A DNA stretch of 64,000 bases from Maribacter ulvicola (GTDB lineage Bacteria; Bacteroidota; Bacteroidia; Flavobacteriales; Flavobacteriaceae), in NCBI RefSeq assembly GCF_900155985.1, contig NZ_FTMA01000005.1, forward strand, positions 62,001 through 126,000. The letters are read 5' to 3'. The translations under genes were made by a program, and so were the position numbers. Below are positions 2,355-28,040 of the stretch, in pieces (positions within the stretch are counted from its first letter, which is position 1; each line of letters opens with the position of its first letter). The notes under the pieces were generated by a model. That model was not told where the DNA came from, made no database searches, and saw only the letters and a program-made list of their open reading frames with translations.

Positions 2355-2391
2355 CAAAAAATATGAATATTAAGCAATTAAATTATAAAAC

Positions 2392-3534: not shown

Positions 3535-3565
3535 ATACCATATTTGAATAGAATTAAATAATTAC

Positions 3566-4466: not shown

Positions 4467-4521
4467 AGTACCACAAAAATAACACAAAAAAACTAATACT
4501 CACGCCAATTAAGTTAATATA

Positions 4522-4552: not shown

Positions 4553-4602
4553 AATGCTCTTAATCTGCCCAATTTTGTACGTATAATTTTAATCACAACT
4601 TT

Positions 4603-5385: not shown

Positions 5386-5415
5386 AAGTCAATTTGTTTA
5401 ATTTTTAATGAGCGT

Positions 5416-6399: not shown

Positions 6400-6406
6400 A
6401 AAATAT

Positions 6407-7132
6407 ATGGCAACCAATTCTCTAAAACATTTACAAATTGAAAGGTTGAATCCCTTGGAAATTGACAAGGCTATACACCAAAAATCATTGGTATTCATTC
6501 CATTGGGAGCTATTGAATGGCATGGATTACATTTACCTATTGGACTAGATAGCTTAACTTCTCATGGGATATGCTTACAAGTGGCACATAAAAGCGGGGG
6601 ACTTGTCATGCCTCCTTTCTATTACGGCATGTCCGGGAGTATATGGCATCACCCATATACAATACTTATAGAAGAAGAACTCGTATTCTTAAAAATAATA
6701 AAAACTACCTTGGTCCGTTTGGAAGCGAGCGGCGTACAAAAGGTTGTCATTTTTACAGGCCATTTTTCTTTAAAACAATTACAAGCATTAGACACCTTAA
6801 AACAAGACTGGCTAATTATTCGGAATTCTTTAGATTTGTCCATATTCTCCATTAGCGATTGTCCAACCGTAGAGATGGAAGCCGACCATGGTGCAATTTT
6901 TGAGACTTCAGTTTTAGCAGAAATACATCCAGAGTTAGTGAAATTGCAAAATTTACCTTCGAAAGAAATTTTCCCTTCAAATGATCCTAACGGAAATAGT
7001 AAAGGGGACCATAGATGTGACCCAGATAATGTGCTTTTTGGAATTTTTGGTGATGACCCTAGAAATTACAATAAGCAGAGAGCAGAAATTATTATTCGCA
7101 AAATTATTGATTGGTTAGTTCAATCGGTATAA
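6407..7132 (+). CDS. creatininase family protein, divergent paralogue
   Basis: Second creatininase-superfamily protein of the locus (241 residues). The first motif is clear: IPLGAIEWHGLHLPIGLDS, containing Glu, His and Asp metal ligands, and a later EADHGAIFETSVL supplies His and Glu. The middle motif, NGHGGN in the paralogue at 1581, is reduced to TGHFSLKQ here, so one conserved loop has changed while the metal site may persist. It ends the PhyH-AKR operon, 7 bp after the AKR stop. The next gene (GntR) converges with only 9 bp between stops and no hairpin is seen there. Substrate unknown; probably an amide or lactam of the sugar handled by the locus. Confidence 0.82.
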   Translation: MATNSLKHLQIERLNPLEIDKAIHQKSLVFIPLGAIEWHGLHLPIGLDSLTSHGICLQVAHKSGGLVMPPFYYGMSGSIWHHPYTILIEEELVFLKIIKTTLVRLEASGVQKVVIFTGHFSLKQLQALDTLKQDWLIIRNSLDLSIFSISDCPTVEMEADHGAIFETSVLAEIHPELVKLQNLPSKEIFPSNDPNGNSKGDHRCDPDNVLFGIFGDDPRNYNKQRAEIIIRKIIDWLVQSV

Positions 7133-7141
7133 AGAATTAAA

Positions 7142-7858
7142 TTATTTTCTAAATATTCTATCAAAATGTGGTTCAAGGTGTCTTCTCATAGCTGTCCTGA
7201 AAGTCTCTGGCGTACCCACCTTTAAATTATCCAACAACATTCGATGTGTAACAAACTGTCCACTGGAATATTCATATTCCTTTGACAATAAGTCCGAACT
7301 ATTCATATAAACAAATTCAAAAACAGGAAGAAGAAGATCCTGAAATTTCTTTAAAGTATCATTGTTTGACATTTCATAGAGTTTTCCATGGAATGCAATT
7401 TCCTTGTCCAACGAGAAGACCGCTTTATTGAAATAGGTCTCTTCTTCCAATACCACAATTTCTTCCAATTCCAACATATCTTTAACCGTTTTGTGTTCAA
7501 AAAGAAAGTCGGCCATTCCCATTTCCATAATTAGGCGAAATTCAAATAAATTCTTAAGCGTATCCGACGCCAGAAGGGTAGGATCTAACATACGCTGAAA
7601 ATTGTTCATAATATCAGGGTTTGTAAGAATCATTCCCCTATGCTTTTTAGATTCAATAATACCAAAAGTTCTTAATCTCAATATTGCTTCCCTAATCACA
7701 GTCCTACTTACCCCTAAGGAATTTGCAAAATCAAGCTCTTTCGGTATTGGATCTCCAGCTTTAAGCTTGTTTTGTTTAATATACTCCAGCAATCGGACCT
7801 CTACCTTATCTACCAATGAAGATGTTTCAATGGGCTCAATTTTTGTGCGTTTTTTCAT
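7142..7858 (-). CDS. GntR family regulator, FadR subfamily (FCD domain)
   Basis: Transcriptional repressor candidate for the sialoglycan genes. The N-terminal winged helix-turn-helix has DKVEVRLLEYIKQNKLKAGD and LGVSRTVIREAILRLRTFG; the C-terminal all-helical FCD domain keeps the metal-binding His pattern (EIAFHGKLYEMSNND, VTHRMLLDN, MRRHLEPHFDRI). I choose the ATG at 7858 (238 residues); the upstream alternative is a TTG. It is divergent from the AGE gene. FadR-type proteins bind TnGTnnnACnA-like palindromes; the sequence TATGTnnnACAT(A/T) is present four times in the locus at promoters (8006, 9293, 21064, 21417), making this protein the best candidate to bind them. The ligand would be a sugar acid or an N-acetylmannosamine-like intermediate. 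Confidence 0.92.
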   Translation of the reverse strand: MKKRTKIEPIETSSLVDKVEVRLLEYIKQNKLKAGDPIPKELDFANSLGVSRTVIREAILRLRTFGIIESKKHRGMILTNPDIMNNFQRMLDPTLLASDTLKNLFEFRLIMEMGMADFLFEHKTVKDMLELEEIVVLEEETYFNKAVFSLDKEIAFHGKLYEMSNNDTLKKFQDLLLPVFEFVYMNSSDLLSKEYEYSSGQFVTHRMLLDNLKVGTPETFRTAMRRHLEPHFDRIFRK

Positions 7859-7994
7859 AAGCTTAATGCAAATATTCAATTATGGACTAAATTAACCAAA
7901 CAACAAAAGTAATATTGTTATCCGTTATTTAACAATGAATTTTAAAGTATATCATTTTTACGTAAAAATGTTCACTAATATAATAAAAAACCTC

Positions 7995-8018
7995 TAAATT
8001 AGCATTATGTATAACATA
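7995..8018 (+). promoter_or_regulatory. AGE gene promoter -7 with GntR palindrome
   Basis: TAAATTAG (7995-8002), one mismatch from TAnnTTTG, is followed after 3 bp by the palindrome TATGT-ATA-ACATA (8006-8018), 14 bp before the ATG at 8033. The palindrome would cover the transcription start. It matches three further copies at 9293, 21064 and 21417. No convincing TTG -33 is seen. Confidence 0.6.
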
Positions 8019-8032
8019 TATTTTTTTTTATT

Positions 8033-9202
8033 ATGAAATATTCGGAAATCTATAAAAATACGCTTTTCAATGATATACTCCCTTTTTGGGAAAAGCATTC
8101 CCTAGACAATGAAAATGGCGGTTATTTTACTTGCTTGAACCTTAAAGGTAGCGTTTATGATACGGATAAATTTATTTGGTTACAAGGCAGACAAGCTTGG
8201 ACGTACTCCATGCTCTATAACAAGGTGGAAAAAAACAGTAAATGGTTAGAAATCTCAAAATTGGGAATAGATTTTATTAGAAATCATGGGATGGACAAGG
8301 ACGGGAATTTCTATTTTGCCGTTACCAAGTCAGGTAAGCCTCTAGTACAACCCTATAATATTTTTTCCGACTGTTTTGCTGCAATGGCTTTCAGTCAATA
8401 TGCAACGGCCATGGAAGATGAAGAAATAAAATCCCTGGCAAAAAAAACGTATTACAATATTCTAAGAAAAAAGGATAACCCAAAGGGCGGTTATGAGAAA
8501 AATACAGATACCCGCCCACTAAAAGGCTTTGCCCTTCCCATGATACTATCTAATTTAGTTTTGGAACTTGAAGATGTCTTGGATGCAGAGGAAGTGGAAA
8601 AAACCATCAATAATAGTGTAAATGAGGTGATGGAGGTGTTTTGCCAAAAAGATTCTGGTATTATATATGAATTTGTAACACCGGACGGTAAGCTTGAAGA
8701 TAGCTTTAATGGAAGACTATTAAATCCCGGCCATGGAATTGAAGCCATGTGGTTTATGATCGATATAGGTGTCAGAAATAATGATAACGGCCTCATAAAA
8801 AAAGCAACGCAGATTATCATTAATATTTTAGAATACAGCTGGGATAAAGAATATGGAGGCATTTTTTATTTTATGGATGCCCTGAACAAACCCATGCAAC
8901 AACTGGAATGGGACCAAAAGTTATGGTGGGTACATTTAGAAACCTTAGTTGCATTGGCAAAAGCCTACGAACATACCCAGAATGAAGAAACGTGGCAATG
9001 GTTCCAAAAAGTACACGAATATGCTTGGAGCAATTTCTCCGACCCTGAGAATGGAGAGTGGTTTGGATATCTAAATAGACAAGGGAAACCATTGAATAAC
9101 CTTAAAGGCGGAAAATGGAAGGGATGTTTTCACGTACCTAGGGCGATGTATCAATGTTGGAAAAGTTTGGAGCAAATTGAGCGTATTCATAATATAAAAT
9201 AG
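8033..9202 (+). CDS. N-acylglucosamine 2-epimerase (AGE/renin-binding protein family)
   Basis: Alpha/alpha-barrel epimerase family; AGE converts N-acetylmannosamine to N-acetylglucosamine, the step after sialic acid lyase in Bacteroidota. Typical features are the N-terminal [18 protein letters not shown], the barrel motif [15 protein letters not shown], the central [16 protein letters not shown] and the C-terminal [18 protein letters not shown]. 389 residues is the family length and there is no signal peptide, so cytoplasmic. It is the first gene after the divergent GntR regulator and carries the GntR-type palindrome in its promoter. Related AGE-superfamily enzymes act on mannose or cellobiose, but the sialidase context favours ManNAc 2-epimerase. 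Confidence 0.9.
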
Positions 9203-9282
9203 TACTTATGAATTTTCCAATGGTTACAATAAAGCTTCAAACCCATACTAACTTTACTGGGTTGGCTATGAACAGTTCAAAA

Positions 9283-9305
9283 TAAAAATACATATGTCTT
9301 ACATA
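9283..9305 (+). promoter_or_regulatory. GntR palindrome and possible promoter of the Kelch-symporter gene
   Basis: TATGT-CTT-ACATA (9293-9305) lies 16 bp before the ATG at 9322. A weak -7-like TAAAAATA (9283-9290) precedes it by 2 bp, with TTG at 9262-9264 giving an 18-bp spacer. The palindrome has the same arms as the other three copies of the locus and only its central three bases differ. Confidence 0.55.
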
Positions 9306-9321
9306 ACATTAAACACTATAT

Positions 9322-11928
9322 ATGAAAATTTATAAATTCATACTCTCCTTAGTAGCCTTTCTGCTCTTTTACCCTTTCATGTTCTCACAGAACTCCAACA
9401 ACATCAAAGTTTCCTATGAGTCTGACCTACCCCCTTTGGGTAATTCAGAAATTTCCTTGGGATACGCTGGTATGATGGGAGGTGTACAGAATAATATTGT
9501 GATAGCAGCAGGCGGGGCTAACTTTCCTAACGGAATGCCATGGAAAGGCGGGCAAAAAGAATGGTACGATTCTATATATTGGTTAGAGAACGGAAAATGG
9601 ACCCTCTCCCAGCAAACTCTGCCCAGACCCCTGGCATATGGCGCCTCAGTTTCCACCACAAAAGGTGTATTGCTCATTGGAGGTAATAATAAGGAGCTAG
9701 TTAGTGACCAAGTTATACTTGTTTCTTTTAATCCATCCAAGAAAGAAATTGAATTGGAACACTTTCCAAATTTGCCCGAACCTTTGGCCTACACTAATGC
9801 AGTATTGGTCGAAGGATTTGTTTATGTTGCTGGGGGAATGAACGAAAAGTCTAGCTCTAATTCCTTTTATCGAATACACTTAGAGAATAAAGATCATTGG
9901 GAAAAACTAAACGACTTCCCAGGAGAACCACGCGCCGTACATTCCATGGCGGTCCAAGAAACATCTAAATCCAAAAGTATTTTCGTCATTGGGGGAAGAA
10001 ATCAGAAAAAAGATCAGGTTTCAACCCATTTTACCAATTTTCTTTCCTACGACCTAGCAAAGCAAGAATGGAAAAATGAAGGCGAAATAATGCTCAATGG
10101 CTCCAAGAAAGTAATCATGGGTGCCTCGGCAGAGCCATCTGGATCAATGCATATTCTAGTATACGGCGGATCAGATGAGGTATTGTTCAAGCAATTGGAA
10201 TCGCTGGCTATAGAAATTAAGATGGCGAAAAATGATAGTATCGCACAACATTTAACCGAAATAAAAAATGAAATCCTCTTAAATCACCCAGGTTTCAGTA
10301 GTGAGGTCCTTGCTTATAACGCGATGACTAGTAAATGGTTTGTATTTGATTCCTTGGACATTAAATTACCTGTCACCACATTAGGCATTAAGCTTGAGGA
10401 CAGTTTTTTACTCGTTTCAGGTGAAGTTTCCCCCGGAATCAGAACTCCAAACGTATTTAAATTTCAAGACGCAGAGGCGACCCATGTTTTTGGTTTCCTT
10501 AATTATGTTGTGTTAATTCTATACCTGTTGATTTCCCTATTCATAGGCGTATTTTTCGCGCGAAAACAGAAGTCAACGGATGATTATTTTTCAGGTGGCG
10601 GTAGAATTCCATGGTGGGCGTCTGGATTAAGTGTCTTTGGCACCCTATTGAGTGCAATAACTTTTATGGCCATACCAGCGAAATCTTTCACAACGGACTG
10701 GTCCTTCTTTATGCTGAATATAGCCGCTATTGCAATTACCCCACTTATAGCATTTATTTTTATACCATTTTTTAATCAATTACATATTTCAACTGCATAC
10801 GAATATTTAGAGAAAAGATTCAATTATTTGGCCCGGGCATTTGGCAGTATTTCTTTTATCATTTTTCAATTAGGAAGAATAGGAATTGTACTTTTATTGC
10901 CTTCATTGGCAATTTCGATAGTTACAGGCATCTCCGTTGAAACGTGTATCTTATTAATGGGACTATTATGTGTTCTATATACTACTTTTGGTGGTATCGA
11001 AGCAGTAATATGGACGGATGTACTGCAAGTTATTGTACTAATGGGCGGAAGTATAGTCGCAATAGTCTGGATTCTTATGCATACGGATTCTTCTATCAAC
11101 GAAATAATAACCTATGCTTCTGAAAAGGAAAAGTTCAATATAATAAATTTCGACTTTAATTTTACGGAATCCACGTTTTGGGTAGTCTTTTTAGGAGGTT
11201 TGGCCTCTGCAATGGTCACCCAAGGAACCGATCAAACAGTGGTGCAACGATTTTTGACCAGCAGTAATGTAAAGGACTCCCAAAAGACACTTTACACCAA
11301 TGCCATTCTTACACTACCGGCCACAATCATTTTTTTCGGGATAGGAACATTATTGTTTATTTTTTACTCCGAAATGCCTGAAAAACTCTCTCCTGCCATT
11401 TCCAATAATGATTCTCTATTTCCATGGTACATTGTAAAAGAACTTCCAATGGGCGTATCGGGATTATTGATTGCAGGGATCTTTTCTGCAGCAATGTCCA
11501 GTATCAGCAGCAGTCTAAATTCAGTTTCCACAGCCTTTTGCAACGATTTGTACGAACGCTATAACCCTAATATACCGGATATAAAACTTCTTAGGGTCGC
11601 TAGAATAACAACAGTTTTTATCGGGATATTCGGAGTCTTGTTGGCTTTATGGATGGCAAACTCCAATATTAAATCCCTGTGGGACCAATTTTATAGGTTT
11701 TTAGGATTGTTTACTGGAGGATTGGGAGGGATGTTCTTATTGGGGATGCTTACCAAGCGTGCCAATTCTACAGGAACTATGATAGGTTTAGTGCTAAGTG
11801 CTATTTTATTATGGTATGTTAGTGTTTATACACCTATAAATTTTCTGATGTACTCACTGATAGGAGTCGGTTCCTGTTTTATTTTCGGTTATATATTCAG
11901 TTTAATCTTTAAAGACAAAAAGCAATAA
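9322..11928 (+). CDS. fusion of NanM-like Kelch epimerase domain and sodium:solute symporter (SSS)
   Basis: Single 868-residue frame with two modules. Residues about 1-23 are a signal peptide; about 30-385 form a Kelch propeller like the sialic acid mutarotase NanM/YjhT (VIAAGGANFPNGMPWKGG, LAYGASVSTTKGVLLIGG, VYVAGGMN, IFVIGGRN, LVSGEVSPGIRTP). From about residue 389 it is a sodium:solute symporter with about 13 membrane helices, starting LNYVVLILYLL and carrying the SSS motif STDDYFSGGGRIPWW. SSS proteins include sialic acid carriers (SiaT type). The layout implies that a periplasmic propeller interconverts sialic acid anomers or 2,7-anhydro forms and hands the product to its own inner-membrane transporter. 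A GntR-type palindrome lies 16 bp upstream. Substrate is inferred from the locus and from the NanM homology. Confidence 0.9.
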   Translation: MKIYKFILSLVAFLLFYPFMFSQNSNNIKVSYESDLPPLGNSEISLGYAGMMGGVQNNIVIAAGGANFPNGMPWKGGQKEWYDSIYWLENGKWTLSQQTLPRPLAYGASVSTTKGVLLIGGNNKELVSDQVILVSFNPSKKEIELEHFPNLPEPLAYTNAVLVEGFVYVAGGMNEKSSSNSFYRIHLENKDHWEKLNDFPGEPRAVHSMAVQETSKSKSIFVIGGRNQKKDQVSTHFTNFLSYDLAKQEWKNEGEIMLNGSKKVIMGASAEPSGSMHILVYGGSDEVLFKQLESLAIEIKMAKNDSIAQHLTEIKNEILLNHPGFSSEVLAYNAMTSKWFVFDSLDIKLPVTTLGIKLEDSFLLVSGEVSPGIRTPNVFKFQDAEATHVFGFLNYVVLILYLLISLFIGVFFARKQKSTDDYFSGGGRIPWWASGLSVFGTLLSAITFMAIPAKSFTTDWSFFMLNIAAIAITPLIAFIFIPFFNQLHISTAYEYLEKRFNYLARAFGSISFIIFQLGRIGIVLLLPSLAISIVTGISVETCILLMGLLCVLYTTFGGIEAVIWTDVLQVIVLMGGSIVAIVWILMHTDSSINEIITYASEKEKFNIINFDFNFTESTFWVVFLGGLASAMVTQGTDQTVVQRFLTSSNVKDSQKTLYTNAILTLPATIIFFGIGTLLFIFYSEMPEKLSPAISNNDSLFPWYIVKELPMGVSGLLIAGIFSAAMSSISSSLNSVSTAFCNDLYERYNPNIPDIKLLRVARITTVFIGIFGVLLALWMANSNIKSLWDQFYRFLGLFTGGLGGMFLLGMLTKRANSTGTMIGLVLSAILLWYVSVYTPINFLMYSLIGVGSCFIFGYIFSLIFKDKKQ

Positions 11929-12000
11929 TCTACCAGTTATATCAGGACATAAGATAATAAATCAAACTACAAATAAATCCCACCGGAAAAAAAATTGCCA

Positions 12001-13170
12001 ATGATAGCCGATATAGTAGCAAATATTCCCGTTAAAAAAGGCCTTAACGGCTGCTATACTGGAATCCACAATGGTGTCATGCTAGTGGCAGGAGGAGCAA
12101 ATTTCCCTAATAAAGAGCTTTGGGAGGGCGGAAAAAAAAAATGGTACAACTCCATATTTGTTCTCAAGAAGCCGAAAGGGGATGTGACCTACAAATGGGC
12201 TGCTGATTTAATCCTACAATTGCCTGAACCACTTGCCTACGGAGCATCTGTTACAACAAAATTAGGTGTCCTATGCATAGGTGGGGAAAACGGGAAGAAT
12301 GTAGTCAATAACGTGTTTCTTTTGCAATGGGATAAGTCTACAAAGCAGGTATGTTTAAAGAAAATGCCCTTTCTCCCTATCCCCTTGTGTAATATGTCCG
12401 CTTGCGTAATAAATGATGTAGTTTATGTAGTTGGGGGGCAAACCTCTTTAGGAGGAGAAGCTACTAGTCATATTTTTACTTTAGATCTCAACTTAACACC
12501 GGAAAATCAAAAATGGGAATCCTTGGTAGGATTTCCTGGTCCAGGTAGAAACCAAGCTATTGTAACAGGCCAATACAAAGGTGCCAATATTCATTTGTAT
12601 GTCATGAGCGGCGTCTATTTTAACCGTGAGCAATATCCAAACACAAAAATGTTGTCCGATGTATATGAGTTTGACATAATAAACCGAAAGTGGACACAAA
12701 TGAAAGACGTTCCCAATAATAACACACCTTTATTTCCAGATGGGTTTATCGCTGCAGCCCCTGTATTACCCATAGAGAAGACCAACATAATAATTTTTGG
12801 AGGTGCAGGTGGTGAACATCAACCTCTGGCCCAGAAACAAGAATTGGAACAGGAAATTGAAGTGATAAAAAGTAACAATTATGGTAACAAAGTAATTCTG
12901 CTAGAAAAAATAAAAACCTTAGAAAATGAGAGTATCTCACTTTTAAGGAGCACTACCTTCTCAAGAATTTTGTGGTCTTATAATACAGAAAAAGATAGTT
13001 GGATTAAATTGGGAACATTGCCTAAAAACCCACAAATTGTAACCAATGCATTGTATTGGGATAATGCCATTTTTATCCCAGGTGGAGAAATAAGCCCTGG
13101 TGTAAGAACTGCCGGGATTTTAAAAATATCGATCAATAATATAGCCTTAAATCATAGTCTTCAAATATAA
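12001..13170 (+). CDS. cyclically permuted Kelch mutarotase family protein (NanM-like)
   Basis: 389-residue Kelch propeller closely resembling the propeller of the preceding fusion protein: MLVAGGANFPNKELWEGG, LAYGASVTTKLGVLCIGG, VVYVVGGQTS, IIIFGGAGGEHQP and a final IFIPGGEISPGVRT. Proteins of this type are cyclic permutations of the E. coli sialate mutarotase NanM, which speeds alpha/beta anomer conversion of Neu5Ac. I start at the ATG at 12001 because the frame before it would need TTG. No clear signal peptide is seen, unlike the fusion protein, so this copy is probably cytoplasmic. It lies 72 bp downstream of the symporter and is likely cotranscribed. Two propellers in different compartments would be unusual if both are mutarotases. 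Confidence 0.85.
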   Translation: MIADIVANIPVKKGLNGCYTGIHNGVMLVAGGANFPNKELWEGGKKKWYNSIFVLKKPKGDVTYKWAADLILQLPEPLAYGASVTTKLGVLCIGGENGKNVVNNVFLLQWDKSTKQVCLKKMPFLPIPLCNMSACVINDVVYVVGGQTSLGGEATSHIFTLDLNLTPENQKWESLVGFPGPGRNQAIVTGQYKGANIHLYVMSGVYFNREQYPNTKMLSDVYEFDIINRKWTQMKDVPNNNTPLFPDGFIAAAPVLPIEKTNIIIFGGAGGEHQPLAQKQELEQEIEVIKSNNYGNKVILLEKIKTLENESISLLRSTTFSRILWSYNTEKDSWIKLGTLPKNPQIVTNALYWDNAIFIPGGEISPGVRTAGILKISINNIALNHSLQI

Positions 13171-13177
13171 TTATTGG

Positions 13178-13315
13178 ACTGTCACTTATAATCTTTCTCC
13201 TTCATTAAAAATAACAGCCTCCAGACCTTCACCTTCGTCAGCCAAAAATGCTAAAGAAGATGTGATAAGCTTAAAAGGTCTAGCAACACTGATTAAGGAG
13301 CAGGTACTTTAATCT
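13178..13315 (+). pseudogene. possible 3' remnant of a lost gene
   Basis: After the NanM-like stop, a frame without stops runs to TAA at 13313-13315, with amphipathic residues such as AKNAKEDVISLKGLATLIKE near its end and no start codon. It looks like the last helix of a protein whose body is missing, but I cannot name a family and chance is possible. The 144-bp gap between the convergent genes shows nothing else. Confidence 0.2.
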
Positions 13316-14826
13316 CAATTTGGAATGAAATATTCTGGATAACTCCATTTAAAATCCTTATTCTTGGAATAAGAATGGTTTGGAAAATGTTTATTTATGG
13401 AATCTATTTCCTTATTAAATCTTGCGAATTTTATGGGATCGGCCAAGGGATCATTAGTTTCGGCCTGCCAAGTTTCCAAGGCAGCAATCATTCGGCCCAA
13501 AATACCTTGATACACCATATCTTCTGATAGGTTATTAAATTCGTAGGGGTCGTTTTGCAAATCGTACAACTCATATTTTGGTGGATTTTTCCATATTTTA
13601 TAGGCATTAATTACCTCTGTTGATGCATTATTAATTTCCGCCTCTTCTGTCCCAGCATCAAAATGACCATTTACATGTGTTTCATAAAAGGCATAATGTG
13701 GATTTTCCTTTCCATGCAGCATGTTTAATATTAATTTATATCTATCACCCCTTACGCTTCTTCGCGGATAATACAATAGACTTGTGGAGCCGTTACCCCC
13801 AGCGAATACATATTCTCTAAAGTTTTTCATATGAGCTCCTTCTAATAAAGGCAATAATGACTTTCCTGGAAGAGTTTTTGGGGAATGGACTTGGGCTATA
13901 TCCAAGAAGGTAGGAAGCAGATCGATCGAATTTACCAATTCGTTTTGTCGAACACCCTTTCCCTTTACGGTAGGATCTTTAATGATCAGGGGTATACGTA
14001 ACCCCGCCTCATAGTTACTACATTTCCCTCGTGAGAATTGAGCTCCATGATCACCCAAATAGATGATTATGGTGTTATCTGCTTTCCCTGAACCCTGAAG
14101 CTCATTCAGCAGCATCCCTACAGATTCATCCAGTCTATTCATACTGTTATAATAATTAGCAGTATACTCCCTTATCCGTTCACTATCAGCCCCTACAAAT
14201 GGCAATGAACCCTCTAAATCGGCACCATCCATAGGATTTTTGGGCATCCCTTCAACTTGTTTTTGCAAAGGGAAATGGGCATCGGGATAATTCACCATTA
14301 GAAAGAAGGGCTTATCCGAACCTTTAATGAAATTAGATGCTTCCTCTGCATATTTCTTAAGATTCTTCTTCCCGAAATTACTCCCTGGAATTGCGTTAAA
14401 ATCAAAAGGAAATTCCTTTTCGGGGTTTACATGAAGCTTACCGATGATACCCGTGGAATACCCCGCTTCATTCAAATATTTCGGTAAGGTTTTAATGTTA
14501 TTGTACATTGTGAACTTGTGTGTCGCCAAGCCTATATGTCCGTTTTGATGCGGATATAATCCAGTAAAAATGACCGCTCTGGAAGGACTACATACACTAT
14601 AAGGAACAAAAGCTCGCTCAAATAGTACCCCTTCCTGCGCCAAATTATCCAGGTTTGGCGTGCTTACCTCTTTAACACCGTAGCAACCGAGATCTGGACC
14701 ATTATCCTCTGACACGATCAACAAAATATTCGGGCTATTCGTTTCTAATTTTTTGGATGAATTACACCCTAATAAAAACAAAGAAAATACAAAAAAGGTT
14801 ATTAATTTAATTATTGGGATTTTCAT
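13315..14826 (-). CDS. sulfatase (S1 family, heparan N-sulfatase-like), lipoprotein
   Basis: Formylglycine sulfatase. The N-terminus MKIPIIKLIT... ends in the lipobox FLLGC (Cys21), so it is a lipoprotein. The active-site signature is C-S-P-S-R at residues 79-83, after metal ligands in VSEDNGPDLGCYG. The motifs YLGDHGAQFSRGK and KLHVNPE, and the SEDNGPDLG variant of the first metal loop, resemble the N-sulfoglucosamine sulfohydrolase (SGSH) branch. I use the ATG at 14826 (503 residues), 10 bp after the stop of the upstream sulfatase; a longer frame would overlap it. Together with the upstream gene it forms a leftward sulfatase pair downstream of susCD. The true target may be an amino-sugar N- or O-sulfate. 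Confidence 0.92.
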   Translation of the reverse strand: MKIPIIKLITFFVFSLFLLGCNSSKKLETNSPNILLIVSEDNGPDLGCYGVKEVSTPNLDNLAQEGVLFERAFVPYSVCSPSRAVIFTGLYPHQNGHIGLATHKFTMYNNIKTLPKYLNEAGYSTGIIGKLHVNPEKEFPFDFNAIPGSNFGKKNLKKYAEEASNFIKGSDKPFFLMVNYPDAHFPLQKQVEGMPKNPMDGADLEGSLPFVGADSERIREYTANYYNSMNRLDESVGMLLNELQGSGKADNTIIIYLGDHGAQFSRGKCSNYEAGLRIPLIIKDPTVKGKGVRQNELVNSIDLLPTFLDIAQVHSPKTLPGKSLLPLLEGAHMKNFREYVFAGGNGSTSLLYYPRRSVRGDRYKLILNMLHGKENPHYAFYETHVNGHFDAGTEEAEINNASTEVINAYKIWKNPPKYELYDLQNDPYEFNNLSEDMVYQGILGRMIAALETWQAETNDPLADPIKFARFNKEIDSINKHFPNHSYSKNKDFKWSYPEYFIPN

Positions 14827-14836
14827 AGACTTATCA

Positions 14837-16237
14837 CTATTGGTTATGAATGTAAGGGGCTTCAAGCATCACGTCCTTGTGCGAAGCAATCAACGCTTTT
14901 TTTAATTTTTTAAAAACTCTAGGTTCCATTTCTGAAATATCTTTCTCCTGATGAAGGTCATTTTTTATATTATATAATTTGAAATCTGTGAGTTTTCCAC
15001 TTTTTATGATAGCTACCTCCTTTGGGTGGAACCTACCATTTTTATGAAAATCACCCACATTCCACTGGGCGCCTAAAATAAAATCACCTTCTCTTAGTAA
15101 AGATTGTGGTCCTCCCCAGGGGTCGTAAAAGTGCCAATTCAAAGCTTTCTTTCTATTAATCTTTTCATTATAAAAAATTGGACCTATGTCCGTTCCGTCA
15201 AGTATTAAACCCTTGGGTATTTTAATTTCTGCTAAATTGGAGAGCGTAGGAAAAAGATCGGTGTTTGAAATAGGCGTTTCATTGATTTGTCCGGGAGCAA
15301 TGGTCCCCTTCCACCTAAATATACCTGGGACCCTTATGCCTCCCTCAAACATATGGCGTTTGTAACCCTTAAAAGGTCCCGCTGAACCATGGGACTTATT
15401 AAAATAGCCGTTTGGAGTGTATTGGGCCGGGCCATGGTCTGACGTAAAAAATATCAATGTATTTTCTGACAAATTTAATTCATCCAGTTTTTTAATTATT
15501 CGTCCAACGGCCTGATCTAAGTTGGCAACATTGGCATAATATTCAGCCTTCTTCCCGTGCTCTTTATACTCTTCTGTTAAACTGGGTGGAGAAAATATAG
15601 GTTCATGAGGCTCTAGAAATCCAATATACTGAAAAAATGGTAGGCCTGGAGCCCTATGTTGTTCCAACCAATCTATTGCTTCATCCGCAACAATATCAGC
15701 TGCATAGCCGTTTGTTGTTACAGCTTCTCCATTTCTAAAGAATCCTTCAGGATCAACATGTTTTAGGCTATATTGACAACCAAACCAATAATCAAATCCA
15801 TGATCGTTTGGTTGTGGTTGATCTGGAATATTAAATTTTCCATTCAAATGCCACTTGCCAATACTTGCTGTTTGATATCCTTTTGTTTTTAAAAGGGATG
15901 CTATGGTGACTTCTTCTTTTGGGAGATACATTGTTGAATCAGGAGCAATCCAATCATAAACACCTGTTCTGTAAGGTGTTCTTCCTGTTAACAACCCCGC
16001 TCTAGATGGGGAACACATCGGGGATGAGGCATAACAGTCAGTCATTTTTATGCCCTCTTCGGCCAACTTGTCGATATTAGGTGTTTTTATGAACTTGTGG
16101 CCATAACTTCCCACATCCCCATACCCTAAATCATCAGCAACAATAATTACTATGTTTGGTGGATTTATCGATTGTGCACCGAGCATTGGTGCTAACAAAT
16201 AACTAATAATACACAATATTTTTAAATGGAATTGCAT
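14837..16237 (-). CDS. sulfatase (S1 family, arylsulfatase A-like), exported
   Basis: Formylglycine sulfatase with a signal peptide (MQFHLKILCI to LLAPMLGAQS). Metal ligands are in VADDLGYGDVGS, the formylglycine signature is C-S-P-S-R at residues 75-79, followed by GLLTGRTPYRTG and IGKWHLNG, and the later FFTSDHGPA. The ATG at 16237 gives 466 residues; upstream in-frame starts are TTG and would overlap a terminator hairpin. It sits between susD (upstream, separated by that terminator) and the SGSH-like sulfatase (10 bp downstream). It probably removes an O-sulfate from the exported glycan before or after import by SusC. Confidence 0.92.
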   Translation of the reverse strand: MQFHLKILCIISYLLAPMLGAQSINPPNIVIIVADDLGYGDVGSYGHKFIKTPNIDKLAEEGIKMTDCYASSPMCSPSRAGLLTGRTPYRTGVYDWIAPDSTMYLPKEEVTIASLLKTKGYQTASIGKWHLNGKFNIPDQPQPNDHGFDYWFGCQYSLKHVDPEGFFRNGEAVTTNGYAADIVADEAIDWLEQHRAPGLPFFQYIGFLEPHEPIFSPPSLTEEYKEHGKKAEYYANVANLDQAVGRIIKKLDELNLSENTLIFFTSDHGPAQYTPNGYFNKSHGSAGPFKGYKRHMFEGGIRVPGIFRWKGTIAPGQINETPISNTDLFPTLSNLAEIKIPKGLILDGTDIGPIFYNEKINRKKALNWHFYDPWGGPQSLLREGDFILGAQWNVGDFHKNGRFHPKEVAIIKSGKLTDFKLYNIKNDLHQEKDISEMEPRVFKKLKKALIASHKDVMLEAPYIHNQ

Positions 16238-16264
16238 TAAGTGCTTTATAAGGATTATTAAACT

Positions 16265-16296
16265 AAAAAAAAGGGAAGACAACTACACCTTCCCTT
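16265..16296 (-). terminator. intrinsic terminator between susD and the sulfatase pair
   Basis: Perfect 8-bp inverted repeat AAGGGAAG (16271-16278) / CTTCCCTT (16289-16296) with a 10-nt loop; on the minus strand it is followed by a run of T (complement of the A tract at 16265-16272). It lies 36 bp after the susD stop and before the sulfatase ATG at 16237, so it should attenuate read-through from susCD into the sulfatases. Confidence 0.8.
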
Positions 16297-16332
16297 TCCA
16301 AACTAACTAACACAACTATTCAAACAGACCTC

Positions 16333-17814
16333 TTAGTAGCCTGGATTTTGGTCGATCAACCCATTTAAACTTATGGTTTCTTGCGATATTGGGAATAGCT
16401 TTTTATGTTCCGGCTCTCCTACCAAAGTCGGCACCAATTCAAAGGCCTTACCAAATCTTAATAAATCATACCATCTTTTACCCTCGAATGACAATTCGAA
16501 CAAACGCTCTTGTAAAATAGCAGCATCATTAGCTTCTAGTGTTCCACTGACAAATTCATGACCCGGATAGTTTGCACCATATGCCCTTTGTCTTATCAGG
16601 GTCATTTCTGCTGTTGGATCTTGGCTCAAGGCATTTTTGGCTTCAGCAATCATTAAAAGTACATCTGCATATCGGTATAGGACAATATCATCCATATATT
16701 TCCTGGTCCCTGCATCCACAAATCCTCTATACTTTATCACTGCAGAGGCATAAAACTGATCATAAACACCTGGGTTATTAGGGTTTTCTGTGTTCATTAA
16801 AACATAAGTTGCATTTTTACGGGTATCATCATCGGTCCATTGATTCCTGAACACTTCTGACGGAGCCCACCTATTCAATCCACCACCTTCTCCCAATAAA
16901 GCTTTAGCAATTGGGTCACCATTGGATGGAATTTGGTCTCCACGGATATAGATGCCACTATTAAAATTATTACCAGATTCTAAATCCTCATAATGGATAG
17001 CCATAATAATTTCTTTGTTCTCTTTATTGTTATATCTAAAGATATCATCGTAATTAACAAGTAAATCCACATCAGCAGTTCGAACACTTTCCAATGACGT
17101 CAAAGCGGTTGTGATATCAGAAGCACCACCTCCCATTAGCTTTCCAGTCCATAAATAGACATCTCCCTTAAGTGCATTTACTGCAGGTTTAGACCACTGA
17201 GATCTTCCGTTAGAAAATGTGTTGTCTGAGAACAACCCTAGCGCTGCTTCTATATCAGATTTAACTAAGCTTATTACCTCAGTAACATTATTACGTGCCT
17301 TAAAACTGTTCACTGGATCAAAGCCCTCGGTAGGCTCTGTATTCACTGGAGCATCTCCCCATACCTTGGCTATAATAAAATAACAATACGCTCTCATGGC
17401 ATGTGCTTGAGCTAAGGCAATATTTTTCTTGGTTTCAGAATCAAAATCAATAGCTGGCGTATATTTCAATATTAAATTTGCATCATGAATTACTGTATAC
17501 AGATTCTTCCAATCCGGTCCGGCAGCATCTTGATCTAAAGTATTCTCAAAATATCTTTCCCTGCCCTCTGATGCTTGTAAACCATAGCTCATAACTTCTG
17601 ACCGGGCTTCTCCCCATGAAAATAAATTATCATTGGCATCTGATCGGAATCTTACATACATTCCATTGACGTAAGACTCCACATCGCCTTGATTCTTCCA
17701 ATAAGAATTGGCGCCAATAACACTTTCAGGAGTGAGGTTCAGATCCTTTTCGCAAGATGTAGCCACCAACATAAATGGAAGCACTATCATTGCTATTATT
17801 CTATATGTTTTCAT
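16333..17814 (-). CDS. susD: SusD/RagB-like glycan-binding lipoprotein
   Basis: Outer-membrane surface lipoprotein that caps the SusC channel and binds glycan. The start at 17814 (493 residues) puts a signal peptide of 20 residues directly before lipobox Cys21 (MLVATSC), followed by EKDLNLTPE, the usual SusD N-terminus. TPR-type helices (AQAHAMRAYCYFIIAKVWGD) and the C-terminal LQERLFELSFEGKRWYDLLR and LFPISQETISLNGLIDQNPGY are diagnostic. Upstream in-frame Mets exist but would bury the signal peptide. The gene follows susC by 32 bp. Ligand specificity is not readable, but the sialidase/sulfatase context suggests a sialylated or sulfated glycan. Confidence 0.96.
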   Translation of the reverse strand: MKTYRIIAMIVLPFMLVATSCEKDLNLTPESVIGANSYWKNQGDVESYVNGMYVRFRSDANDNLFSWGEARSEVMSYGLQASEGRERYFENTLDQDAAGPDWKNLYTVIHDANLILKYTPAIDFDSETKKNIALAQAHAMRAYCYFIIAKVWGDAPVNTEPTEGFDPVNSFKARNNVTEVISLVKSDIEAALGLFSDNTFSNGRSQWSKPAVNALKGDVYLWTGKLMGGGASDITTALTSLESVRTADVDLLVNYDDIFRYNNKENKEIIMAIHYEDLESGNNFNSGIYIRGDQIPSNGDPIAKALLGEGGGLNRWAPSEVFRNQWTDDDTRKNATYVLMNTENPNNPGVYDQFYASAVIKYRGFVDAGTRKYMDDIVLYRYADVLLMIAEAKNALSQDPTAEMTLIRQRAYGANYPGHEFVSGTLEANDAAILQERLFELSFEGKRWYDLLRFGKAFELVPTLVGEPEHKKLFPISQETISLNGLIDQNPGY

Positions 17815-17846
17815 AATGTTTAAGTTTTTATTTTTTCTGTTCATCA

Positions 17847-20800
17847 TTATAATGATACATTTAATCCTAATAAAAAGGTTTGTGGATTTGGATATCTACC
17901 ATTATCAATTCCTCCGTCCTCAGGTAATAATCCCCTATAATTGGTGATGTAACCCAAATTACTTCCCGTAGCATATAATCTAAGATTGGATATACCCAGT
18001 TTTGCAACTCCAGGTGTTAATGGAAGATTGTAGCTCAATGTAATTTCTCTTAATGCCAAATAATCACCTTTTTCATAGAAATCTGAATTCATTGCTATGT
18101 TTTGACCTCCTCCAGTCCTAAAGTTATTATTTTGTGCCAGTTGATCCGCCCAGTAGTATCGTGGAATATCGGTAACATCTCCTTCATTTTCCCAAGACCT
18201 TAATACTTCCTTGGTTATACCTATATCACCTTGCCATTGCCCTAAATACACTCCGTGCATTTGATTGACAATAGTATGGCCTATGGAGAAATCAGTACGC
18301 ACTGTCAAACTAAGATTCTTGTAATTGAACGTATTGGTAAACCCACCGGTCCAGTCCGGAAATTCATTACCAACATATACCCTATCCAAGGTATTGATAA
18401 CTCCATCATTGTTCACATCCCTAAAGATAATGTCACCACCTTGCTTACGTTTATCCGATCCAGCTACCAACTCATCTATGGGTCCGGCCTCAGCTTCCGC
18501 CGTGGTTGCATATACGCCCAAAACTTCATAGGTATAAAGATCCCCCATTGTCTGACCTTCTTGTAATCCAGCAACCCATCTTGTACCCCCATTTACTGGG
18601 TCAGCCACCTCATAACCACCTATCCTATTATTGTCATTGCCGTTTTCAGGTAATTTGGATATAGTATTTTTATTATGTGATAGATTAAGCGCGGAGACCC
18701 ACCCAAAATTATCATTTTCAATTATACGGGCATTTAGCTCCAATTCCACTCCTTCATTGTTTAAGTCGCCCAAATTGGTCAGGATACTTGAAAATCCTGT
18801 CACTTTAGGCAAGGTAAAACTGGTAATCAAATTATGAGTGTCCCGATTGTAATAATCAAACAACAAGGTCACTCTATTATTAAAAAGACCTAAGTCGAAA
18901 CCTGCACCAATAGCTTCAGTTTGTTCCCACTGAAGTGCATCATTTGAAAGAGAGCTATTAAGTACCGCTGCTTTTCTATTATACTTGTTTCCGACCCCAT
19001 AAACTCCTTGGTATTTATAATCTTCAAGTTCCCCTATATTACCTGTCACCCCGTAACTAGCTCTAAATTTCAGCGAACTAAAGGTGGAGGTGCTTTCGCC
19101 CCAGAAACCTTCCTTATGAACGTTCCATCCAGCAGAAACACCTGGGAAGGTTCCCCATTTAAAATCGGCTCCTAAATTAGATGCTCCATCATGTCTGATA
19201 CTTGCCGTTAGGAGGTATTTCCTCTTATAGTCATAATTAACCCGCCCGAAAAAACCAATTATATTCCTAGAGGAAAAAGAACTAGTAACGTTTGTAGGTT
19301 CCGCAGATGCGTTCAATGTGGGAATCAAATCTGAAGATGCCCCCCTACCATCGGCGCCTAAAATGTATGCCTCCCTGCTTACCCTAGAAAAACCTGCTTT
19401 AGCATTTAAGGCATGTTCGTCTTTCATAATTTTAGCATAGGTAAAAACACCTTCTATCTGCGTGGTTATATCCTGCTCAAAATCGGCACTTGCATTTCTT
19501 GAGTCATTAAATGACGTTGCCGTATTAAAATATGATTTCTGGAATGCATTATCCAAATCTTGCTCCTGAGAATAGGAAAAGAACGGGGAGAATGTCAAAT
19601 CCGAAAAAATTTGATAATCCAAACCGATAGAAAGTGACAATCTATAGTCTCGGCGCTCCTTATCAAATCTACCTAAGTGATATACCGGATTACCTATACC
19701 CCTATTTTGACCTGGAGCTAACGTACCATCCTCAAAAGCAAATTTTGCAGTTGGAGGCAAACCTAACGAACGTTGAAAAATCTGATTAGAACTAAAGACT
19801 TGATTATTGTTTGCGGTACTGTAGTTAACACGACCCCATACCTTAAAGTTATCCCTTATATTGAATCCTCCATACATTTTTGCAGTATATCGCTCATAAT
19901 CAGTCTTTAGTGCCACTCCTTCACTTTTAAGATACCCTACACTTACATCATATTCGGCATCCTCGGTGCTCCCAGAAAACGAAAGGTGATGGTTGGTGGT
20001 CAATCCAGTTTTGAATAATTTATCCTGCCAATCTGTTCCTTTAAATATAATAGTTTTATTAGAATCTAGAGGATCTGGCATACTTTCCCATCCTTCATTT
20101 AATTTATGGTCATTAACCCCAGGCTGTAGATATTGTGTTGTAAAACTAGTATTGTTCGTTAAATCGTTTCCAATCCCTGCACCTACAGGCAAGTCTAACC
20201 TGGAAAGACGTTCAGGATGTTTTTCCCCCGTGGCCGCAATACCCAATCTACCATAATAAATATAGTCTCGAGCTGAAACCAAATCGTATGTCTTACCAAT
20301 TTGCGACATGCCCGTTGTCACATTATAACTTATTTTAGGCTTTCCCTTCCCTGTTTTGGTAGTTACGATGATAACCCCGTTAGAAGCCCGTGAGCCATAA
20401 ATAGATGCTGCAGCTGCATCTTTCAACACCTGTACCGACGCTATATCAGCCGAGTTAAGGTCGTCCATATTATCCCTAATTATACCATCGATAATGTACA
20501 AAGGCCCTGCACCATCAGGGTTATTGATAGAGGTACCACCACGAATAATTATTCGTGTTCCCGCACCTGGTTGCCCAGAGGTTTGTTGAGCCCTAATTCC
20601 CGCAATGGACCCTTGCAAAGCTTGTGTTGCATTAGCAAACGGTACGTTCTCCAAGACTTTCGTGTCTAATTTCGATATAGACGAAGTTAGTGTTTCCCTT
20701 GATTGAGATCCATAGCCCACTACCACTACCTCATCCAATTGGGACGCATCTTCCTTAAGGATAATGTTGATAACGGATTGGCTCCCTACCGTAATTTCTT

Positions 20801-21050
20801 TTTTGGAAAAACCGATATAACTGAAGACCAAAACATCTGCCGATGTTGCACTGATGGAAAAATTACCATCAAAATCACTTTGCACACCATTGGCAGTATT
20901 CTTCACCAAAACGTTGGCTCCTGGAAGAGGTTGATTAGAATCATCCGTGATAGTCCCCGTAATTATCTTTTCTTGCCCATGAACCCCCGAGAACAGCAAA
21001 ATAGCCGCTAAAGTGAGTACCCCATTTAAAAATTTGTTTTTTCGTTTCAT
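17847..21050 (-). CDS. susC: SusC/RagA family TonB-dependent outer-membrane transporter
   Basis: 1067-residue TonB-dependent importer of oligosaccharides. A signal peptide (about residues 1-25) is followed by a CarboxypepD_reg-like domain (ITGTITDDSNQPLPGANVLV), the TonB-box region with DEVVVVGYGSQ, the SusC signature plug domain (SIAGIRAQQTSGQPGAG, LKDAAAASIYGSRASNGVI) and a long beta-barrel ending in LLGLNVSL. It is the first gene of the susCD unit. The promoter carries a GntR-type palindrome at 21064-21076, 13 bp before the ATG, right after a -7 element, so import is probably induced together with the AGE and symporter genes. Confidence 0.97.
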   Translation of the reverse strand: MKRKNKFLNGVLTLAAILLFSGVHGQEKIITGTITDDSNQPLPGANVLVKNTANGVQSDFDGNFSISATSADVLVFSYIGFSKKEITVGSQSVINIILKEDASQLDEVVVVGYGSQSRETLTSSISKLDTKVLENVPFANATQALQGSIAGIRAQQTSGQPGAGTRIIIRGGTSINNPDGAGPLYIIDGIIRDNMDDLNSADIASVQVLKDAAAASIYGSRASNGVIIVTTKTGKGKPKISYNVTTGMSQIGKTYDLVSARDYIYYGRLGIAATGEKHPERLSRLDLPVGAGIGNDLTNNTSFTTQYLQPGVNDHKLNEGWESMPDPLDSNKTIIFKGTDWQDKLFKTGLTTNHHLSFSGSTEDAEYDVSVGYLKSEGVALKTDYERYTAKMYGGFNIRDNFKVWGRVNYSTANNNQVFSSNQIFQRSLGLPPTAKFAFEDGTLAPGQNRGIGNPVYHLGRFDKERRDYRLSLSIGLDYQIFSDLTFSPFFSYSQEQDLDNAFQKSYFNTATSFNDSRNASADFEQDITTQIEGVFTYAKIMKDEHALNAKAGFSRVSREAYILGADGRGASSDLIPTLNASAEPTNVTSSFSSRNIIGFFGRVNYDYKRKYLLTASIRHDGASNLGADFKWGTFPGVSAGWNVHKEGFWGESTSTFSSLKFRASYGVTGNIGELEDYKYQGVYGVGNKYNRKAAVLNSSLSNDALQWEQTEAIGAGFDLGLFNNRVTLLFDYYNRDTHNLITSFTLPKVTGFSSILTNLGDLNNEGVELELNARIIENDNFGWVSALNLSHNKNTISKLPENGNDNNRIGGYEVADPVNGGTRWVAGLQEGQTMGDLYTYEVLGVYATTAEAEAGPIDELVAGSDKRKQGGDIIFRDVNNDGVINTLDRVYVGNEFPDWTGGFTNTFNYKNLSLTVRTDFSIGHTIVNQMHGVYLGQWQGDIGITKEVLRSWENEGDVTDIPRYYWADQLAQNNNFRTGGGQNIAMNSDFYEKGDYLALREITLSYNLPLTPGVAKLGISNLRLYATGSNLGYITNYRGLLPEDGGIDNGRYPNPQTFLLGLNVSL

Positions 21051-21063
21051 TTTAGTTTGATGT

Positions 21064-21111
21064 TATGTATTACATAATCCAATATTAAACATAAAATACT
21101 TTTTAACCAAA
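21064..21111 (-). promoter_or_regulatory. susC promoter with GntR palindrome
   Basis: On the minus strand TTTG (21111-21108), a 20-bp spacer and TAATATTG (21087-21080) form a Bacteroidota-type promoter. After 3 bp the palindrome TATGT-ATT-ACATA (21076-21064) covers the expected start site and ends 13 bp before the susC ATG. Repressor binding there would block initiation. Confidence 0.68.
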
Positions 21112-21405
21112 TTTTAAGAACTTTTTTAGTGTTAAATCTACTGAAGCCTCAACACTTATATAAAACAACACCATAAATGGGATATTCCGATTATTTATAT
21201 GCTAAACCATATACATACTCATAAAAAGACCTATAAAGTTTATAATTTCAATAGCTGTACTAAAAAGAATCTGTACAGGTGTTTTATATTAATGTTACTA
21301 AGACCAAAAATGAAACTCATTAATATCATGACCTTGTTAATTGCATTTATTTTAAATTTTAGCAACCTGCCTCTTAAATTTTTAGGAAAATCCATAAAAT
21401 TAATG

Positions 21406-21429
21406 TAAAATTGCCTTATGTATAACATT
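21406..21429 (+). promoter_or_regulatory. lrgA promoter -7 with GntR palindrome
   Basis: TAAAATTG (21406-21413), one base off TAnnTTTG, then 3 bp, then TATGT-ATA-ACATT (21417-21429), one mismatch in the palindrome. The geometry is the same as at susC and the AGE gene. The lrgA start codon is 168 bp downstream. A -33 is weak (TTTA near 21381). Confidence 0.55.
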
Positions 21430-21596: not shown

Positions 21597-21935
21597 ATGT
21601 TTAAGGGAATTTTATATATATTTTCATTCCTAGCACTCGGGGAAATTCTAGTGTACCTATGTAATCTTCCTATTGCAGGCAACATTGTGGGAATGGTAGC
21701 AATATTCATAGCCTTAAAATTAAAGTTGATAAAATTGAATGATGTAAAACCCGCCTCTGATCAGTTTATAAAGTATATGGTTTTATTTTTCGTGCCTTAT
21801 GGGGTAGGCCTAATGACCTTTTATGACATTCTAAAGATTCATTGGCTTGCAATTGTTGTCAGCACAGTTGCAAGCACTATTCTGACACTATACATAACTG
21901 GTATCATATTACAAAAATTTGGAAAGGGTGAGTGA
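21597..21935 (+). CDS. lrgA: CidA/LrgA family membrane protein
   Basis: Small membrane protein of 112 residues with four predicted helices (ILYIFSFLALGEILVYLCNL, AGNIVGMVAIFIALKLKLI, FIKYMVLFFVPYGVGLMTFY, LAIVVSTVASTILTLYITGI); the PYGVGLM region is typical of LrgA. With LrgB it forms a two-gene membrane system first described as holin-like; the Bacillus relatives PftA/PftB act as a pyruvate carrier and the plant relative PLGG1 carries glycolate/glycerate. Sialic acid cleavage yields pyruvate, so pyruvate traffic is a sensible role here. It shares the GntR-type palindrome and overlaps the next gene by 8 bp. Confidence 0.87.
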   Translation: MFKGILYIFSFLALGEILVYLCNLPIAGNIVGMVAIFIALKLKLIKLNDVKPASDQFIKYMVLFFVPYGVGLMTFYDILKIHWLAIVVSTVASTILTLYITGIILQKFGKGE

Positions 21936-22620
21936 GATCTATCAACAACCCCTTTTTGGAATTTTTATTACACTATCGGCATTTCAATTGTCACAGATAA
22001 TCGGTCGTAAATGGAAGTTTGTACTCTTTAATCCGGTCTTGCTTTCTGTGGTATCCATAATTTGCTTTTTAGTCATTTTTGAAATTGATTTTGAAGCCTA
22101 TAACATTGGTGGGCAATATCTAGGATTTTTATTAGGACCTACGGTCGTAGCCCTAGGGGTTCTCTTTTATGAAAAATTTGAGCAAATAAGAGAAAATATA
22201 ATGCCTTTTTTATCCGCCGTTGTTATTGGAGGGGTAATGAGTATTATTTCTGTTAGTACCATAGCTATCACTTTAGGTGCTTCTGAACCAATTATAAGAT
22301 CTATCGCTCCAAAATCTGTCACCACCCCAATTGCATTGGAAATCGCAAAAATGATTGGCGGTGTACCCTACATAACTGCCGGTATAGTGATAGCAGTAGG
22401 AATCTTTGGAAATGCATTTGGCCCTGTAATTTTACGCTGTTTAGGAATAAAGAACAAAAACGCAATAGGCGCCGCCTTAGGAACCGCCGCCCATGGTATC
22501 GGTACCGCAAGAGCATTGGAAGAAGGAAAACTACCGGGGGCCTATGGTGGATTGGCCATGTGTATAAACGGGTTATTGACAGCCATCATCACGCCATATA
22601 TCGTAAACGTAGTAATATGA
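21928..22620 (+). CDS. lrgB: LrgB family membrane protein
   Basis: Polytopic membrane protein of about 230 residues, partner of LrgA. Typical LrgB sequences are QYLGFLLGPTVVALGVLFYE, SVTTPIALEIAKMIGG (the conserved KSVTTPIA motif) and GAALGTAAHGIGTARALEEG. I start at GTG 21928, overlapping the lrgA stop by 8 bp; TTG at 21919 is the alternative and no ATG is available. The tight overlap suggests translational coupling. In staphylococci LrgB modulates murein hydrolase release, in Bacillus the homologous pair transports pyruvate; position inside a sialic acid locus favours transport. Confidence 0.9.
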   Translation: MSEIYQQPLFGIFITLSAFQLSQIIGRKWKFVLFNPVLLSVVSIICFLVIFEIDFEAYNIGGQYLGFLLGPTVVALGVLFYEKFEQIRENIMPFLSAVVIGGVMSIISVSTIAITLGASEPIIRSIAPKSVTTPIALEIAKMIGGVPYITAGIVIAVGIFGNAFGPVILRCLGIKNKNAIGAALGTAAHGIGTARALEEGKLPGAYGGLAMCINGLLTAIITPYIVNVVI

Positions 22621-26325: not shown

Positions 26326-26350
26326 ATATTTAGTTTTTATTTATTGATTC

Positions 26351-28027: not shown

Positions 28028-28040
28028 CGCAGGTGGTATA

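Follow-up and report, generated by a model that had tools for sequence, protein, structure and literature searches.

An FCD-type GntR regulator and a conserved palindrome as its predicted operator in sialic-acid gene clusters of Bacteroidota

The 64,000-nucleotide stretch of the Maribacter ulvicola genome (4.51 Mb) analysed here, C7:62001-126000 and called the window below, carries genes for sialic-acid use around an FCD-type, NanR-like GntR regulator of 238 amino acids (aa) (7142-7858, minus strand; PF00392, PF07729). Divergent from gntR lies the gene of an N-acyl-D-glucosamine 2-epimerase (AGE; 8033-9202, plus strand; NCBIfam NF052547, 648.8 bits at a cut-off of 600), next to a gene in which a NanM-like Kelch domain is fused to a sodium:solute symporter (9322-11928, plus strand; PF24996, PF00474). 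A TonB-linked receptor of the SusC family, NanO-like by position (17847-21050, minus strand; TIGR04056, 833.8 bits), adjoins a NanU-like SusD-family lipoprotein (16333-17847, minus strand; PF07980, PF14322), for which NanU is the best NCBIfam model (306 bits, below the cut-off of 425). On the other side of susC follow lrgA (21597-21935, plus strand; PF03788) and lrgB (21919-22620, plus strand; PF04172). We computed sites, conservation, spacing and gene linkage of a short palindrome that recurs in front of these genes, and propose that it is the operator of the adjacent GntR protein.

An initial annotation of the window had placed four palindromes in front of AGE, the Kelch-symporter gene, susC and lrgA, and all of them were recovered by pattern search: TATGTATAACATA at 8006-8018 (plus strand) in the divergent gap between gntR and AGE, TATGTCTTACATA at 9293-9305 (plus strand) before the Kelch-symporter gene, TATGTATTACATA at 21064-21076 (minus strand) at the susC promoter and the one-sided TATGTATAACATT at 21417-21429 (plus strand) at the lrgA promoter. 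Three of these predicted operators are perfect palindromes (TATGTNNNACATA), and the lrgA site is imperfect on one side (ACATT). The start codons behind them are ATG 8033 for AGE, ATG 9322 for the Kelch-symporter gene and ATG 21050 (minus strand) for susC; that of lrgA, at 21597, lies 167 bp beyond its palindrome. The pattern originally suggested for checking the sites, TATGTNNNACAWA, has six strand matches at three places in the window compared to a shuffle mean of 0.70, with none of 100 shuffles reaching six; it is unable to match the lrgA site, which requires ACATW. The core had been described as TnGTnnnACnA, to which we found no literal fit: it reads ATGTnnnACAT and matches the general GntR layout GT-N3-AC.

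The FadR-subfamily GntR protein assigned to 7142-7858 in the same annotation was borne out by profile searches (PF00392 with 48.3 bits at a cut-off of 27, PF07729 with 44.8 bits at a cut-off of 24.3), and its ATG start at 7858 agrees with aligned homologs. It combines traits of the subfamily, namely a GntR winged helix-turn-helix, an FCD domain and a putative operator in which 3 nt separate GT from AC; the TKGT/ACMA boxes, a tendency of the subfamily and not its definition, are replaced by ATGT/ACAT. In a tree of 27 rows, a long branch leads to a single clade of the 19 Bacteroidota proteins, which excludes E. coli NanR, LldR, PdhR, UxuR, ExuR and GlcC and two paralogs of the own genome; the branches are long and the deeper order is unsure. 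The residues of the FCD metal site (Glu153, His157, His205 and His227) are invariant in 16 aligned homologs and 18 others of the tree. Arg108 corresponds to Arg128 of E. coli NanR, a position at which all eight comparison proteins carry Arg, too.

A fifth palindrome is located 5345 bases before the window start, in front of nanA (sialate lyase). This nanA-like gene belongs to the DHDPS family, has N-acetylneuraminate lyases as best NCBIfam models, below cut-off, and is followed downstream by genes for a SASA esterase, a GDSL hydrolase and a BNR protein that carries a neuraminidase N-terminal domain. Exact TATGTNNNACATW occurs at 22 distinct places in the genome, five of which fall within the 27 kb of C7:56655-83429 (binomial p = 1.8e-7); 14 of the other 17 are inside open reading frames (ORFs) of at least 60 aa, three are not. 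In the own genus, the four regulator-bearing genomes contain 8, 7, 7 and 8 strict palindromes compared to a mean of 3.7 in the 32 genomes without the regulator.

Close homologs of the regulator, defined at E at most 1e-40, are found in 36 of 397 sampled family genomes, and four of the 36 genomes of the genus carry the regulator at an identity of at least 68%, with the own genome included in both counts. The 40 homologous regions retrieved from 39 genomes (1.60 Mb; G114 contributes two) hold 108 strict palindromes, compared to a mean of 2.5 in ten Markov-1 runs and two for the reversed pattern, and other spacer lengths from 0 to 8 yield 0-4 sites each against the 108 with a spacer of 3. The nearest target of these sites is SusC for 34, AGE for 33, NanA for 22, a Kelch-symporter gene for 12 and another gene for 7. 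A scan of named genomes covered the best 80 of 535 confirmed stretches. Altogether, 120 loci were available, 110 of them distinct (L206 has no gntR call and nine are duplicates). In 95 of these 110 loci, gntR is preceded by a strict site at a distance of at most 400 bp, with 30 bp into the gene allowed, and in seven by a one-mismatch site. Counted strictly upstream, a strict site stands within 400 bp of 93/111 gntR, 77/120 SusC, 35/57 AGE, 30/99 NanA and 0/103 SusD genes, compared to a background of 21/1309 genes outside the nan set. The titles of loci L189-L243 name Sphingobacteriaceae, Chitinophagaceae, Pontibacter, Dyadobacter and the like, with the exception of a few vague ones and a single Arenibacter (L196). 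In this set, the strict site is found at gntR in 45 of 54 loci, in most cases in the gap that separates gntR from a divergent SusC-SusD-NanA run. The regulator and the palindrome, paired in this way in several Bacteroidota families, are a likely off-switch for sialic-acid use.

We then used 104 sites of other genomes to train a symmetrised 21-bp matrix, whose core is fixed by construction because these sites were selected by the strict core, and scored 100 kb of the own genome with it. The top five scores are exactly the five sites, with 26.4 at nanA as the highest, 22.2 at susC, 19.2 at AGE, 15.0 at the Kelch-symporter gene and 14.5 at lrgA, and the next score is 3.7. Maxima of twenty simulated 100-kb sequences ranged from 5.0 to 15.1, a value reached by one of the twenty. 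The nanA, susC and AGE sites stand on score alone, and the Kelch-symporter and lrgA sites need their position as support.

Most of the palindromes also share a promoter arrangement. A -7-like element ends exactly 3 bp before the operator at AGE (TAAATTAG, 7995-8002, plus strand, before 8006), at susC (TAATATTG, minus strand, before 21064-21076) and at lrgA (TAAAATTG, plus strand, before 21417), as had been read from the sequence earlier and could be seen there directly. The fixed geometry claimed for the group thus stands at three sites and fails at the Kelch-symporter site, which has no -7 element 1-4 bp upstream. In front of nanA, the octamer TATATTCG likewise ends 3 bp before the palindrome, but is missed by the regular expression used for counting, the loose pattern TA..WTWG. 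This pattern ends 3 bp upstream of 54 of the 108 sites and 1-4 bp upstream of 70, compared to 8, 0, 0, 1, 1, 1, 0, 1, 1 and 1 at ten control anchors 10 to 55 bp further upstream. Counted by genus, the 1-4 bp spacing is found at AGE in 22/25, at NanA in 15/16 and at SusC in 16/24. As the -7 box of Flavobacterium psychrophilum is reported to span -12 to -5 (PMC9723704, in the part available), the 13-bp core would occupy roughly -1 to +12. Over the 12 sites of the Kelch-symporter class, seven octamer matches follow the palindrome at a distance of 12-22 bp on its downstream side, and the operator there would therefore lie near or above -33. The extended consensus GTATTATGTnnnACATAATAC has its first G in common with the end of the -7 box, and this shared G may itself fix the spacing between box and palindrome.

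Taken together, we assign a probability of roughly 0.86 to the palindrome being the operator of the adjacent FCD-type GntR protein, which would repress a sialic-acid regulon in a NanR-like manner. Operator-like sites precede NanA, AGE, SusC and Kelch-symporter genes, as expected of a repressor of such a regulon. The mechanism we infer, comprising binding, repression, start sites, effector and a role in pyruvate transport, is as follows. A dimer of the regulator would bind the extended palindrome, whose core would lie directly behind the -7 box at the promoters of AGE, of nanA and of many susC genes (and of lrgA here). Once in place, the dimer would prevent either formation of the open complex or escape from the promoter. 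In front of Kelch-symporter genes, the operator would sit on the upstream side of the likely -7 box. A sialic-acid signal, possibly N-acetylneuraminic acid (Neu5Ac), N-acetylmannosamine or another compound of the pathway, would be received in the FCD domain and release the repressor. The predicted regulon would cover sugar release by sialidase-like proteins and esterases, outer-membrane import by SusCD, inner-membrane import by the Kelch-symporter, the nanA lyase and the AGE epimerase, with lrgAB as a probable member that may move the pyruvate made by the lyase. The initial proposal of one operator and one adjacent FadR-subfamily regulator for a set of sialic-acid genes (uptake, outer-membrane import, epimerisation and LrgAB) is backed by conservation, by the matrix from other genomes and by the spacing, more weakly so at the Kelch-symporter gene and at lrgA.

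How close is this regulator to the NanR of E. coli? Both combine a winged helix-turn-helix with an FCD-type domain, are associated with sialic-acid genes, and have a metal site of three His and one acidic residue as well as the Arg128 position (PMC8012715, as far as the source was available). They differ in that, according to the same source, three dimers of E. coli NanR occupy GGTATA repeats, whereas the predicted operator here is a symmetric palindrome. GGTATA repeats are absent from the promoters discussed here, and the one pair in the window (19681-19700) lies inside the susC ORF; the nanA promoter is outside this searched window. Further differences are the separate clade, a metal ligand that is Glu here and Asp there (the Zn ligands of E. 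coli NanR given in the available part of PMC8012715 are Asp172, His176, His222 and His244), and an N-terminus that is 17 residues shorter in the alignment. An identity as E. coli-type NanR was thus rejected on the missed cut-off of the NanR model NF003011, the separate clade and the different operator. A NanR-like function is supported by the context.

Several observations weigh against the proposed operator and its regulon. The match to NF003011, which as the best NCBIfam model of the regulator is in itself a point in favour, is with 84.9 bits far below the cut-off of 260, and most residues with which E. coli NanR touches Neu5Ac are not conserved in the Bacteroidota regulator, so that the effector may differ; an effector prediction from these contacts led nowhere. 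At eight of the 110 distinct loci (G114b, G286, G163, L187, L188, L198, L214 and L222) gntR has neither a strict nor a one-mismatch site, only 14 of 50 Kelch-symporter genes are preceded by a strict site at a distance of up to 400 bp, the sites of this class have a -7 element 1-4 bp upstream in none of 11 genera, and in the near relative Arenibacter troitsensis (L164) no site was found between AGE and the Kelch-symporter gene. Sites of related genomes are, moreover, non-independent events. The matrix scores of the Kelch-symporter and lrgA sites are not above the simulated maximum of 15.1, and L001, a place inside an ORF away from the nan genes, scores 16.8 and hence more than these two; since L014 and L021, also among the 17 other genomic places, reach 13.4 and 12.8, score alone is no proof of function. 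The two AraC regulators of the cluster, encoded at 3615-4487 of the window and at L023:11497-12387 before nanA, may add a second layer of control.

The simplest competing explanation, that AT-rich DNA supplies such palindromes everywhere, can draw on the genome-wide total of TATGTNNNACATW, which is not enriched (30 strand matches compared to 45 for the reversed control), and on the window, in which 18 matches with one mismatch allowed are at the chance level of 16.4. A search with the extended 19-bp pattern and three mismatches was likewise unspecific across the genome (107 places compared to 98 in the control) and was discarded. The genome scan for random motif frequency proposed in the initial annotation therefore returned a total at chance, but the places cluster at the nan locus and most others are inside ORFs; with conservation, spacing and the matrix from other genomes also speaking against it, we regard chance as the origin of these sites as negligible. 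Might a different protein bind the palindrome, with the linkage to gntR being incidental? Candidates are the AraC regulators of the cluster and the two paralogous FCD regulators, at C8 and C14, and operators of the FadR subfamily resemble one another (PMC4494728, part of the text). However, the palindrome accompanies gntR in many loci without a recognised AraC gene of that kind, the paralogs fall outside the regulator clade and the palindrome near the C8 paralog is inside an ORF, all of which makes another binding protein very unlikely. For that last reason the palindrome, at C8:146209 and about 450 bp from the paralogous gene, was rejected as a second operator. Somewhat less remote, yet still improbable, is an activating or dual role of the GntR protein at the palindrome: the octamers downstream of the palindrome in the Kelch-symporter class would put it in a position permitting activation, but, by the -7 box coordinates cited above, the core would coincide with the start at the promoters of AGE, of nanA and of many susC genes, which fits repression.

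Membership of lrgAB in the regulon under this repressor is plausible but less certain. LrgB exceeds its cut-off in 11 of 39 regulator-bearing genomes, with seven of the 11 copies at most 15 kb from gntR, in five genera. Among the family genomes, 26 of 397 have LrgB: 11 of the 36 that carry the regulator and 15 of the 361 that lack it (Fisher p = 2.2e-6, relatedness not corrected); both counts are taken to refer to the same 397 genomes, judged from shared handles. The six in-cluster copies other than that of the window lie downstream of AGE in the same direction and have no strict site of their own, and the same arrangement downstream of AGE is seen in Arenibacter nanhaiticus (L196). This linkage, the association with gntR, the -7 element at exact spacing before the lrgA site and the unlinked lrgAB of G065, which is preceded by a strict palindrome at a distance of about 66 bp from lrgA (with a divergent gene 326 bp away on the other side), argue against the lrgA site being a chance near-match with lrgAB outside the regulon. 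For such a near-match, which we consider unlikely though well within reach, speak the imperfect half, the low score set against a simulated sequence reaching 15.1, the lack, for each of the eight lrgA genes in the sampled loci, of a strict site in the 400 bp before the gene, and three of four unlinked lrgAB copies without a strict palindrome. In 15 lrgAB loci from regulator-less genomes, strict palindromes were absent from the 15-16 kb searched in each. LrgAB-type proteins are reported as pyruvate transporters in B. subtilis (PMC5626966), and LrgAB/PftAB was also studied in S. mutans and S. aureus, as far as can be taken from the available parts of these sources; the proteins here share the LrgA and LrgB families. 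Among papers in which LrgAB, pyruvate and sialic acid co-occur, one carries these terms in its reference list only. Sialate lyase yields pyruvate (PMC4324048, in part). It is conceivable, at slightly less than even odds, that LrgAB in the bacterial family of M. ulvicola is dedicated to sialic-acid catabolism under control of the repressor and moves lyase-released pyruvate. If true, the name 'antiholin' would obscure a metabolic transporter linked to a single sugar pathway.

Regulators named NanR also control sialic-acid genes in Bacteroides. In B. fragilis, nanR is described as a putative repressor whose deletion gave constitutive lyase activity (PMC3969230, available part), and NanR of B. thetaiotaomicron (BT0433) differs from the regulator described here in belonging to the ROK family and not to GntR (PMC3878776, available part). 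The GT and AC 3 nt apart are shared with the operators of DgoR, ExuR, FadR, GlcC, LldR and PdhR, whereas FadR-subfamily operators have the TKGT/ACMA boxes; within its available part, the survey reporting these motifs counted no Bacteroidetes regulators (PMC4494728). The accessible sections of the genome paper of strain Th78 (L179) mention sialic-acid lyases and a TRAP transporter and do not mention GntR (PMC4324048), and among the titles listed by searches of open-licence literature, with subscription papers and regulon databases outside them, none describes this operator or regulon. The findings point to a sharp pair of regulator and operator for sialic-acid use in several Bacteroidota families, distinct from the FadR-type NanR of E. 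coli and the ROK-type NanR of B. thetaiotaomicron. The recurring -7 spacing provides a clean example of what may be start-site occlusion, in a phylum whose promoters are unusual, and the motif aids sequence-only annotation of sialic-acid genes, possibly of lrgAB, too.

In the siaC locus of Capnocytophaga canimorsus, known from the gene descriptions in the available part of PMC2533406, genes for a gntR-like protein, a putative N-acylglucosamine epimerase and a sialidase are adjacent, similar to G286, which has no palindrome near gntR. The two Capnocytophaga loci L187 and L188 (48-50% identity) have a different neighbourhood with no recognised nanA and no palindrome near gntR. In Niabella (L230), a second gntR homolog (45%) with an adjoining palindrome lies near NanA- and BNR-like genes.

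The cluster of the window further encodes a NanM-like Kelch protein (11995-13170, plus strand; PF24996) and two sialidase-like BNR-repeat proteins, one at 2392-3534 (plus strand; PF13088), with homologs beside nan genes in relatives, and one downstream of lrgB (22646-25456, plus strand; PF13088, PF13859). A creatininase-family hydrolase is encoded at 6407-7132; its relatives recur beside lrgAB and BNR genes, among them 'x257' of G278 (PF02633, 198.4 bits). A second gene of the N-acetylglucosamine 2-epimerase family (L023:7601-8773) precedes the nanA block and is encoded on the opposite strand. The gene order around gntR (92-14865) matches Arenibacter troitsensis L164 and not the congeners, with identities to L164 of 80-94% for ten of 11 matched genes and 70% for NanM, and NanA is 97% identical to that of G406 compared to 54-55% in the three congeners with the regulator. 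This gene order and the NanA identities suggest horizontal transfer. Adjoining the end of the cluster, at 25594-28472, are IS21-type ORFs (istB and transposase) together with one that encodes an arm DNA-binding domain.

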